64,000 nt of DNA, taken from positions 125,887 through 189,886 of the forward strand of contig QHNH01000010.1 in NCBI GenBank assembly GCA_003218375.1. Reading direction: 5' to 3'. Positions 29,180 through 62,303 of the stretch are shown piece after piece (positions within the stretch are counted from its first letter, which is position 1; every line of letters begins with the position of its first letter). The notes under the pieces were generated by a model, which saw nothing but the letters and a program-made list of their open reading frames with translations, had not been told where the DNA came from and ran no database searches. The translations under genes were made by a program, and so were the position numbers. Source of the stretch: Verrucomicrobiota bacterium. GTDB lineage: Bacteria > Verrucomicrobiota > Verrucomicrobiia > Chthoniobacterales > UBA10450.

Positions 29180-29270
29180 TTCTGTAGCCGCTTCGCTGTG
29201 CGAAGCGCGGGAATGGATCTTCATAGTCCGATACCGCTCTCGCGCTGCCCACAGGGCAGCGGCTACAGAA
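29180..29270. repeat. TGTAGCCGC...GCGGCTACA inverted-repeat element
   Basis: The element begins TTCTGTAGCCGCT and ends AGCGGCTACAGAA, an exact inverted pair of 13 bases. An inner hairpin, CGCTTCGCTGTGCGAAGCG, follows the left end. It lies between the small membrane protein and the carboxylase gene and has no coding capacity. Its ends match the repeats at about 20.1 and 62.2 kb. Confidence 0.8.
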
Positions 29271-35101: not shown

Positions 35102-35191
35102 AGGTAGGGACGCTTTTCCGAAGCGTCCGACTTATTCAGATTGCGGGCGTCTCACAGAATAGTCGGATGCCTCGGAAAGGCGTCCCTACCT
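35102..35191. repeat. AGGTAGGGACG...CGTCCCTACCT inverted-repeat element
   Basis: Ends are inverted copies: AGGTAGGGACGCTTTTCCG at left and CGGAAAGGCGTCCCTACCT at right, with inner CGTCCGAC. It lies between dinB and the divergent UPF0173 gene. A second copy of the same type is at 56.55-56.65 kb. Confidence 0.85.
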
Positions 35192-39045: not shown

Positions 39046-39154
39046 CCGGAACATAGACATCCTGTCTGTGCGCCCAACGGGTTTGCAACCCGTTGACCGT
39101 CCGGCAGCGGGCAAAATGCCCGCGGGGCACACAGGCTAAAAGCCTATGTTCCGG
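39046..39154. repeat. CCGGAACATAG...CTATGTTCCGG inverted-repeat element with inner hairpins
   Basis: The 109-bp element has inverted ends (CCGGAACATAG and CTATGTTCCGG), a second nested pair (CTGTCTGTGC/GCACACAG) and two internal hairpins, CAACGGGTTTGCAACCCGTTG and GCGGGCAAAATGCCCGC. It lies between the converging DUF885 and dehydrogenase genes and runs over the last codons of the dehydrogenase gene. Confidence 0.85.
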
Positions 39155-42100
39155 CGGCCTGCCTGCCTCGCGCCGCCGTCGGGATCGCGAAACTTTCGAT
39201 TCGCTCCTTAATGTCGTGCACAAAGTTCGCGGCGCCGGCGCCGTTCACGACGCGATGATCGAACGTCAGTGAAAGCGTGATGACTTCCGCGAGCTGACTT
39301 TTCTTACCGTCGCCAATCGTTTCGTAATGCGCGGAGCCGACAAAGAGAGTCCCCACCGACGGCGGCACTACGATCGGCGCCGCGGCCCGAACACCGAATG
39401 CGCCCAGGCTGCTGATGACGAGCGGCGCATTCATCGCATCCACTCGGCCGGTGCGCGTTTCCGCGACGGTCTCGTTGTAGCGCTGAACGAAATCGGTCCA
39501 GTCGCGCGTGTTCGCATGAGTGACGACCGCCGTCGCGAGCCGATCGTCCTCGAGCGCGACGGCGATCCCGAGATCGAATTCGTCGTTCTCCACGATTTGG
39601 TCGTCGTCCAAAATGATCCGGCGAAATGGCGCGTGCTTTTCCATCGCCCGGACAACCGCCCACGCCACCATCACCGACGGCGACGCGGCATTCTTGCCCT
39701 CTTTCTTTTTCGCTTTCTCGCGCGCCGATCGAATCGCGTCCCAGCGCGCATCGATCTGAAGGTTTGCCGGAATGACGCGACCCAGCCTTCGCACGATCGT
39801 TGGCGAAAGCGCCGGCTCGATCGCTTTGCTTTTCTCTTTCTGTAGAGGCAGCCGCGCCGGCTGTTCGGCTATCGGTTCGGTATCACCATTTCTTTCGGCG
39901 GAAGCTTCGGATGACGATTGCAGCGCCCCGTCTTCGACTTGGATCGTCCCGAGTTCCTGCCCGATATCGACGGTCGCACCGACCTCGGTTTTCCATTCTC
40001 CCATCGTCCCGGCAATCGACGACTCGATCGGATAAACCGCCTTGTCGGTTTCCACTTCGCAAAGCGGATCGTCGAGCGCGATCTTGTCGCCTGGTTTCTT
40101 CAACAGCGTTACGATTTTCGCGTTGCGAATCCCTTCGCCCATGATCGGCACGATGATCTTTTGTTTGTTTGCCATGCGAGCGGGTTCTTTCTTTGGAGCC
40201 GGCCTGCCCTCAGGCCGGGGAGTTTCGATTCTGTCCGCAGGCGTAACGGCACGAGGGCGTGCCGTCTCCATGGCCATCGCGCGGCGCAGCGCGGCCACGA
40301 TGCGTTTCACATCCGGCAACGCCGCATACTCGTAGATCGGGTTGTACCCGATCATCACGTTCGCCTTGCTGACGAGAATCGGCGGCGCGTTCAGCTCGCT
40401 CCAAATCTCCGGCAAGCCCGCGAGATGCGCCACGATCATCTGGCCGACGCTGCAATTCTCGCTGTCCTCCTGGACGACAACGAGCCGTCCCGTCCGTGCG
40501 ACCGATTCCTCAATCGCCGCGCGATCCCACGGCACGATCGAGCGCAGATCGATCAGATCGACGCCGATCTCGCCGTCGATTTCCGCGAGCGCCTCGAGCG
40601 ATTTCTCGACGGTGTTGCCCCAGGCGACGAGCGTGACATCCGAGCCGGCATTGCGTTTTCGCGCCACTCCGAGCGGCGCCGCCTTCACCGGTTTCGTCGA
40701 TTCGTGCTCGGCCCAAAGCAAATGTTTCGGGACGAGCACGAACGTCGGATCTTCGCAGTGCATCGCCGTCCACAACAATCCGGCGGCGTCCTCCGGCGTG
40801 CTCGGGATGGCGACGTTGATCCCGGGATAATGGGCGAGTGCTGCCTCGTTCGCCTGGCTGTGCCACAAACTTCCCCCCGGAAGATACGCGCCGTACGGAG
40901 CGTAAATCACGACCGGGCAAGTCCAGGTGCCGAACGAGCGCCAGCGCAAGGTCGAGAGATTCGTCACGAGCTGGTTCCACGCGGGGCCGATGAAGTCGAT
41001 GAATTGCAGCTCGAACACCGGCCGCTTTCCGTACGAAGCGAGACCGCAGGCGACACCGAGGATCGTCGATTCAGCGAGCGGCGAGTTGTAGACCTGCTTC
41101 GGAAATTCGGTCGAAAGTTTTTGGGTCAGACGAAACACGCCGCCTTTCGGATCTTCAATGTCTTCGCCGAAGATGATGCGGCCGCTGTTCTCTTTCAGTC
41201 CAAGACGCAACGTCTGGTTGATCACGTCGCCGATGCGGTATTTACCCGGCGGCAGAACTTCATCGTCCAACTCTGGCAAATCGGCGGTGATCTGGATCTG
41301 CAACTCGTCCGCGGTGGGATCTTCCGCACGCTCGGCTTCCGCGAATTCATTGCGGATCCGCTCTTTGATTTCCTGGTCGAGCTTCGCGTATTCGTCGGCG
41401 GTTATGACGCCGTCGGCGATCAAGCGCTCGCTCCAGCGCTTTAACGGATCGCAGTTCTCGCACTCGGCCAATTCATCGGCAGTGCGGTAAAGTTTTTGGT
41501 CGTCGGAACTGGTGTGGCTCGAGAGCCGTTCCATGTTCACCCAGAAAAACGCGGGCCCGCCGCCGGCGCGCATCGACTCGAATGCTTTCGCACCCGCGTC
41601 GTAGATTTGCTGCACGTCGCTGCCATCAAGTTCCTGCCAGTCGTTAGGCTGAAGAACATCGAGCGCGCGCGGGTTAATTTTTCGCGTCGGACTGCTGATG
41701 CCGTATTTATTGTCCTCGACGACGAAGAGCACCGGCAGCTTTCGTTCTTTCGCAAAACAAACCGCTTCGAAAAAATCGCCCTGGCGCGTGGCGGCGTCGC
41801 CCACCGTGGTGACGACGACGTTCGGTTTGCTATCGAGTTGGATTCCCCACGCGATGCCGCACGCGGGGAGAAGCTGCGAGCCAGTCGGCGTGGGCACGCT
41901 CCAAATTCCTCGCGAGGCATAGCTATAATGCGACGGCATCTGGCGCCCGTGACTTTGGCCTTTGCGCTTCGCAAAATAATCGAGCGCCAATTCGCGCGAT
42001 GCCACACCGCGACCGAGGACGAGCGCACGGTCGCGGTAGTAGGGCACCACGTAATCGCCCTCGACCATGGCCACGCCGAGCGCCGCCAGCCCTTCGTGTC

Positions 42101-42227
42101 CCATGCCGGAAACATGGAAATGCCCTTTGCCCTGGCGATTCAAGTTTTGCTCGCGCAGGTCGCCGTGCCGGCTCTCGAGCAGGATCGTGAGCACGCGCAG
42201 TTTGTCTTCTTTATTAAGAGCGGGCAT
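39144..42227 (-). CDS. Single-chain branched-chain 2-oxoacid dehydrogenase: E1alpha-E1beta-E2 fusion
   Basis: From ATG 42227 this is 1027 aa. E1alpha (about 1-340) has the ThDP site [13 protein letters not shown]...VVEDN and [13 protein letters not shown], closer to branched-chain than pyruvate enzymes. E1beta (about 350-650) has [15 protein letters not shown] linker then leads into E2: a lipoyl domain ([14 protein letters not shown], from 40175, where an internal ATG starts MANKQKII) and a catalytic domain. E1alpha-E1beta fusions are known; adding E2 is rare. The E2 lacks a recognisable E1/E3-binding domain between SPTIVRRL and VIPANLQI, and the active-site motif reads DHRVVNG instead of DHRxxDG. 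The linker DNA holds two palindromes. No E3 gene is adjacent. Confidence 0.88.
40199..40265. repeat. Two palindromes inside the E1-E2 linker
   Basis: CCGGCCTGCCCTCAGGCCGG (40199-40218) and ACGGCACGAGGGCGTGCCGT (40246-40265) are near-perfect hairpins 27 bp apart. They resemble the intergenic palindromes elsewhere in the window but are read in frame as the linker between the E1beta and E2 parts. This suggests that a former intergenic spacer was captured by loss of the E1 stop codon. Confidence 0.75.
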
Positions 42228-42297: not shown

Positions 42298-42382
42298 TCG
42301 GAGGGACGTGCTTCCGCACGTCCGACTTGTTGTTTACGGCGGCGCGAAAGTTTTGGGACGTGCGGAAGCACTTCCCTCCGAG
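42298..42382. repeat. TCGGAGGGACG...CCCTCCGAG inverted-repeat element
   Basis: Left end TCGGAGGGACGTGCTTCCGC and right end GCGGAAGCACTTCCCTCCGA are inverted copies, with inner ACGTCC. It sits between the divergent dehydrogenase and thrC genes, ending 14 bp before the thrC GTG. A second copy of this type is at 55.15-55.24 kb. Confidence 0.85.
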
Positions 42383-56552: not shown

Positions 56553-56647
56553 ACAGGTAGGGACGCCTTTCCGAGGCGTCCGACTTCCTCGAGAATCGCT
56601 TCGCAGCAGAAATTTGTCGGACGCGTCGGAAACGCATCCCTACCTGT
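56553..56647. repeat. AGGTAGGGACG...CCCTACCT inverted-repeat element, second copy
   Basis: Ends ACAGGTAGGGACGCCTTTCC and GGAAACGCATCCCTACCTGT are inverted copies and match the element at 35.1 kb. It lies between the divergent pdxJ and DUF2064 genes, so a promoter for either gene must work around it. Confidence 0.85.
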
Positions 56648-57398: not shown

Positions 57399-57421
57399 GT
57401 AGCCGGGATCGGTGATCCCGG
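57399..57421 (+). repeat. TGTAGCCGGGATC hairpin, half copy
   Basis: TGTAGCCGGGATCGGTGATC followed by CCGG is a hairpin unit identical to the left half of the element at 62.2 kb; no right half is found here. Confidence 0.7.
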
Positions 57422-62226: not shown

Positions 62227-62303
62227 TGTTGTAGCCGGGATCGGTGATCCCGGTCGGGTCAGCGGAATTTTGCGCGGGCGGGATCAACGATCCGGCTACA
62301 ACA
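62227..62303. repeat. TGTTGTAGCCGGGATC...GATCCGGCTACAACA inverted-repeat element
   Basis: Ends TGTTGTAGCCGG and CCGGCTACAACA are exact inverted copies. The left half contains the hairpin GGGATCGGTGATCCC. It lies just after arsS and runs 8 bp into the 3' end of the YjbR-like gene, giving that gene its TAG stop (TTGTAG on the minus strand). Confidence 0.85.

Follow-up and report, generated by a model that had tools for sequence, protein, structure and literature searches.

REPIN-type palindromes in the linkers of a single-chain E1alpha-E1beta-E2 2-oxoacid dehydrogenase of the Chthoniobacterales

The window analysed here, a stretch of 64,000 nucleotides, carries on its minus strand a gene for a protein in which the E1alpha, E1beta and E2 components of a 2-oxoacid dehydrogenase follow each other in one chain. 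This arrangement, put forward in the original prediction, is borne out by an uninterrupted frame with five Pfam domains, all scoring over their cut-offs; no curated NCBIfam model reached its cut-off over the protein. A GTG upstream of the ATG start would lengthen the frame to 1075 amino acids. The DNA encoding the linker between E1 and E2 contains a REPIN, an inverted doublet of REP palindromes. The features of the locus are as follows.

39144..42227, minus strand: fused E1alpha-E1beta-lipoyl-E2 2-oxoacid dehydrogenase, one open frame of 1027 aa with ATG start
41313..42161, minus strand: E1alpha domain PF00676 (E1_dh), residues 23-305, Pfam
40716..41231, minus strand: E1beta pyrimidine-binding domain PF02779 (Transket_pyr), residues 333-504, Pfam
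40299..40667, minus strand: E1beta C-terminal domain PF02780 (Transketolase_C), residues 521-643, Pfam
40194..40270, minus strand: complete 77-bp REPIN (TGGAG, palindrome, spacer, palindrome, CTCCA), coding for about residues 653-678
40246..40265, minus strand: first REP palindrome, ACGGCACGAGGGCGTGCCGT, gene strand ACGGCACGCCCTCGTGCCGT, with a 16-bp core
40199..40218, minus strand: second REP palindrome, CCGGCCTGCCCTCAGGCCGG, gene strand CCGGCCTGAGGGCAGGCCGG, in the opposite orientation
40173..40262, minus strand: E1-E2 linker, predicted disordered, residues 656-685
40173..40175, minus strand: internal ATG, residue 685, not conserved among relatives
39942..40160, minus strand: lipoyl domain PF00364 (Biotin_lipoyl), residues 690-762
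39813..39926, minus strand: inner E2 linker, residues 768-805, REP-free in the window, with REPs in many relatives
39189..39761, minus strand: E2 acyltransferase domain PF00198 (2-oxoacid_dh), residues 823-1013

Among 34 aligned fusion proteins, the three domains of the thiamine-diphosphate-dependent E1 (PF00676, PF02779 and PF02780), the lipoyl domain and the acyltransferase domain are present in every member. The residues Gly143 and Asn173 of the thiamine motif and their neighbours, the lipoyl lysine Lys729, the active-site His991 within DHRVVNG, and Asn995 are invariant. A canonical E2 is built as lipoyl domain, peripheral subunit-binding domain (PSBD) and catalytic domain; the fusion protein departs from this plan, since PF02817, the PSBD, was found in none of the 34 at E values up to 10. 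The same model did find the domain in two E2s from separate complexes of the same genome. In an AlphaFold2 model of the fusion protein (mean pLDDT 80, pTM 0.68) most of the domain parts are confident, the stretch between the lipoyl and the catalytic domain, which holds no PSBD, is mostly unstructured, and the two longest stretches with a pLDDT below 50, residues 656-685 and 768-805, are the two linkers.

With the complexes that have an alpha2beta2 E1 (Gram-positive pyruvate dehydrogenase (PDH), branched-chain 2-oxoacid dehydrogenase) the protein shares its E1alpha, E1beta, lipoyl and acyltransferase domains, and the best solved relatives of its E1 include 1um9 (2-oxo acid dehydrogenase) as well as 1ik6 and 1w85 (pyruvate dehydrogenase E1); it differs from these complexes in being a single chain and in lacking the PSBD. 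Actinobacterial OdhA/KGD also unites E1 with an E2 acyltransferase domain in a single chain (PMC8146983), but there the acyltransferase is N-terminal to a 2-oxoglutarate E1 of the one-chain type and the E2p of PDH supplies the lipoyl groups, whereas the present protein runs E1alpha-E1beta-lipoyl-E2 with a lipoyl domain of its own and is not of the OdhA/KGD kind. Our best inference from the sequence is that it is an acyl-CoA-forming 2-oxoacid dehydrogenase. With thiamine diphosphate as cofactor, the E1 part would decarboxylate a 2-oxoacid; the acyl group would travel on the tethered lipoyl arm to the E2 domain and be transferred there to CoA, and the lipoyl group would be reoxidised by an E3 from a separate gene. 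The protein is an unusual member of its class, one whose covalent tether appears to replace the subunit-binding domain in keeping E1 on E2. The genome also encodes separate-subunit complexes, PDH-like on contig C10 and branched-chain-type on C12, as well as a 2-oxoglutarate dehydrogenase E2 with an E3 on C42, which makes the fused chain an extra enzyme. At two Opitutaceae loci a fused enoyl-CoA hydratase/3-hydroxyacyl-CoA dehydrogenase gene lies just upstream on the same strand, which hints at a predicted role in branched-chain or other acyl-CoA catabolism. The neighbour in the window and in several other Chthoniobacterales is a divergent threonine synthase-like gene, with an aspartokinase gene beyond it.

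The fusion is widely conserved. Full-length matches in a single frame occur in 27 genomes of the genus and family (the own genome included) and in one genome from another family of the order, out of 58 genomes of these three ranks. A scan of one genome per species, which overlaps in part with this set, gave 80 further fusion loci, all verrucomicrobial, from Chthoniobacterales and Opitutaceae at 53-88% identity, and in a phylum sample full-length fusions extend to further families of the class at 47-63% identity. The linker proved free of stop codons in all 110 loci read (85 distinct sequences, the own genome included), so that conservation in relatives, which the original prediction had proposed as a check, was found, and the stop between E1 and E2 in close relatives, which by its own account would have spoken against it, was seen in none. 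The linker is masked by N in one locus (L027), and a metagenome-assembled genome (L115) has a frameshift within the lipoyl domain, outside the linker. A frameshift or assembly artefact behind the fusion was rejected: independent assemblies agree, and the stops located in the checked phylum-sample matches all lie at residue 1017 or later. Because the chain runs through without a break in both Chthoniobacterales and Opitutaceae, which are separate groups, and in more distant members of the class (46-50% identity), it was not made by a recent stop loss, and since the Opitutaceae proteins are fused with REP-free linkers, the repeat entered a protein that was already fused. Judged by this sequence comparison, the fusion is old and predates the REPINs in its linkers.

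REPINs have been described as inverted REP doublets that are mainly extragenic and lie near Y1 tyrosine transposase genes (PMC3116915). The element in the window fits this description, being an inverted pair of REPs with a conserved head that is multicopy, dispersed and mainly extragenic; unlike the usual REPIN it is kept in frame within a coding linker. Exact matches to the core of the first palindrome, GGCACGCCCTCGTGCC, number 19 in the 3.96-Mb genome, where its reversed control gave 0, and CCGGCCTGAGGGCAGGCCGG has 7 copies at up to 1 mismatch, again with 0 for the control. Chance is thereby ruled out, and the two 20-bp palindromes are confirmed as being of the intergenic kind suspected from the letters alone. 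Of the 18 other exact core copies, 15 lie outside any open frame and one stands in frame within pheT; the dispersed copies of the element share defined ends. The 77-bp REPIN is predicted to fold into one hairpin (-38.5 kcal/mol, z -1.84). That the two palindromes form one composite element was missed by the original prediction, as were the upstream GTG and the like behaviour of the lipoyl-catalytic linker in relatives. The first-palindrome core was also found in the genomes of genus-mate G005 (52 copies), G006 (9), G001 (4) and G003 (1), with none in G002, G004 and G007 and 0 for the controls; a TGGAG-type element stands in the fusion linkers of the first four and not in those of G002 and G007, and the linker of G004 was not recovered. 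TGGAG-family REPs lie on both sides of Y1_Tnp genes, two in G000 and one in G005, an arrangement usual for REPs and RAYTs (PMC3116915); these genes are likely the RAYT-type transposases of the element, and we infer that these RAYTs move the REPIN. Four further complete REPIN-like doublets lie in the window, at 29184-29266, 35104-35189, 56557-56643 and 42300-42379, the last in the gap that separates the fusion gene from its divergent threonine synthase-like neighbour. A single TGGAG-family REP also stands in frame within pheT (phenylalanyl-tRNA synthetase beta; L197, G000 C27, about 34067), with the sequence ..DQPARGRAGSITI...

A clean empty site for the REPIN of the window was not encountered. 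The REPIN-free linker of a genus-mate (L117) has the same length, so that insertion and replacement look alike at this site, and since the length of 77 bp does not divide by three, additional bases must have entered or left alongside. The original prediction further suggested that E2 might be made separately from an internal start. The ATG is indeed present at 40175, at residue 685, but separate synthesis gained no support: only 20 of the 56 sequences from Chthoniobacterales and 6 of the 28 from Opitutaceae have an ATG no more than about 15 codons from the lipoyl domain, and none of these has a Shine-Dalgarno-like motif, a weak test as the main start has no obvious one either.

REPs were then counted in the relatives with a finder that takes a GTAG or GGAG head followed by a palindrome; as it accepts loose matches, some of the family assignments and tree changes given below are uncertain. 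The Chthoniobacterales fusion genes hold 58 REP halves in 10.6 kb of E1-E2 linker (5.5 per kb) and 37 in 10.0 kb of inner E2 linker (3.7 per kb), compared with 21 in 108.7 kb of E1 body (0.19 per kb), 0.07 per kb in the catalytic domain and 0 in the lipoyl domain. The Opitutaceae have 0 in 5.5 kb of E1-E2 linker and 0.17 per kb in the inner linker. Counting perfect palindromes by themselves gives the same picture: they number 24 in the E1-E2 linker and 15 in the inner one, where codon shuffles gave 1.3 and 0.3, and all 40 shuffles were beaten by 30 of 56 Chthoniobacterales linkers and by none of 28 from Opitutaceae. Complete REPINs within long open frames amount to 25 in 753 kb of loci, 23 of them in the fusion gene. 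A general invasion of E2 linkers by REPs was not seen: in the own genome, those of the PDH, branched-chain-like and 2-oxoglutarate dehydrogenase E2s showed none.

The occupants differ between relatives. A second REP family, GTAGCCGSGRTC..., is scattered through 17 of 34 genomes, where the reversed control gave 0 matches, and occupies the fusion linker in G005, G010, G018 and G019. On a tree of 84 fusion proteins built with the linkers left out, no fewer than 29 changes of REP type and 15 of REP presence are needed. Near relatives differ by clean indels of REP size that keep the frame. Within one close pair, L105 has an extra GTAG half where L087 shows a 42-base gap, and another fusion linker (L072:4408-4432) has a 27-base in-frame insert coding for part of SAFAEATADK, which probably belongs to a further family of small repeats. 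In Chthoniobacterales, and not in Opitutaceae, both linkers are filled by REP-like elements from several unrelated families. The motif TGGAGGCGGCTGTCC occurs in linkers bearing GTAG heads; its genome-wide match count of 0 was obtained with a head other than the GTAG of the linkers. In one genome (L019; G019 C14, 9200-9276 and 9554-9577) GTAG REPINs stand in both fusion linkers together. Two identical GTAGCCGGGATCGGTGATCCCGG REPs lie elsewhere in the window, at 57399-57421 and 62231-62253, and their family fills the fusion linker in other genera.

We consider it well supported, with a probability of roughly 85%, that E1alpha, E1beta and a short, PSBD-less E2 (one lipoyl domain and the acyltransferase) were fused long ago, and that REPINs later invaded the linkers of the fusion, in frame and repeatedly. 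RAYT transposases would move the REPINs, and those insertions that are in frame and free of stops would be retained, the copy in the window being one such complete TGGAG-type REPIN. The linkers would be hit because disordered spacers tolerate nearly any stop-free sequence, and as they need just flexibility and an open frame, repeated invasion in Chthoniobacterales would follow. Tolerance, with the insertions presumably neutral, is the simplest reading. One step further, and put forward tentatively with the odds against it, the linkers could be a standing landing site which successive REPIN families enter, to be kept as protein spacer or as functional mRNA or DNA hairpin, so that a mobile population would repeatedly provide one conserved enzyme with coding sequence for its linkers.

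Several observations recall a single event, in which one REPIN entered the gene in a Chthoniobacterales ancestor and later drifted, or was converted, to the resident REP family. In many genes the first GTAG head lies at a near-constant offset, mostly 54-63 nt into the linker stretch, and gene-strand GTAG heads are in codon phase 0 in 23 of 23 linker cases. Part of this constancy is an expected filter, since the GTAG-CCGSG sequence holds stops in the other two frames. Moreover, relatives differ in span (60, 62, 75, 77 and 81 bp), in head (GTAG or GGAG) and in palindrome, both linkers are hit, and whole REP halves are gained or lost in frame, which makes one entry improbable. Somewhat less probable again is a hairpin retained for a role of its own, such as delaying the ribosome between E1 and E2 or shielding the mRNA. 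It would agree with the near-perfect palindromes in many species, the paired arm differences between genus-mates and the greater number of complete REPINs in the linkers than in all flanking DNA of the same loci, but perfect palindromes are also expected from recent insertion alone, many relatives have no recognisable linker REP and the Opitutaceae manage without. The stop loss of the original prediction, by which adjacent E1 and E2 genes with an intergenic repeat between them lost the E1 stop and made the repeat a linker, retains its captured intergenic-type repeat and the ATG before the lipoyl domain but is itself very improbable, as loss of the stop from a REP-bearing spacer is contradicted by the uninterrupted, REP-free linkers of fused Opitutaceae and other families of the class, and one ancestral intergenic repeat leaves unexplained the different REP families at the same site in different genera.

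That REPs can lie in frame is known in kind since 2013, when Opitutus terrae, of the Verrucomicrobia, was reported as the richest case of in-frame GTAG REPs (PMC3733652). In-frame repeats in proteins are often dimers coding for 20-30 amino acids, with the Rickettsia palindromic elements behaving likewise, recB of two Xanthomonas species has such repeats at about the same site, and it was suggested that a place in flexible linkers may explain why they do no harm (PMC3733652). Dehydrogenases are not mentioned in the main text of that paper. The present case differs from the repeats of Opitutus terrae and Rickettsia in that many species and several families, one of them TGGAG-headed, meet in two linkers of one enzyme. 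Among open-access papers we found no description of an E1alpha-E1beta-E2 single chain, of the PSBD-less architecture, of the TGGAG family or of the deep recurrence at two fixed linkers, so that two things appear to be new here, the PSBD-less fused enzyme and the recurrent exchange of REPs at fixed linkers across many species. Together they offer a clear, replicated case of 'extragenic' mobile palindromes turned into protein sequence, with one enzyme, two linkers, several families and dozens of species. With the REP-free relatives as outgroup, the question whether intragenic REPs are tolerated or useful becomes testable.

The nearest other E1alpha-E1beta fusions in the phylum, at 34-39% identity (L217:22-3522 and L222:466-3783, both on the minus strand, and the others of L218-L223), continue, where checked, with a lipoyl domain followed by a 3-oxoacyl-ACP synthase III (KAS III) domain in place of an E2, as confirmed by Pfam for L217 and L222. 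No open-access paper was found on such an E1alpha-E1beta-lipoyl-KAS III single chain; going by its domains, it might prime fatty-acid-like synthesis straight from a 2-oxoacid.
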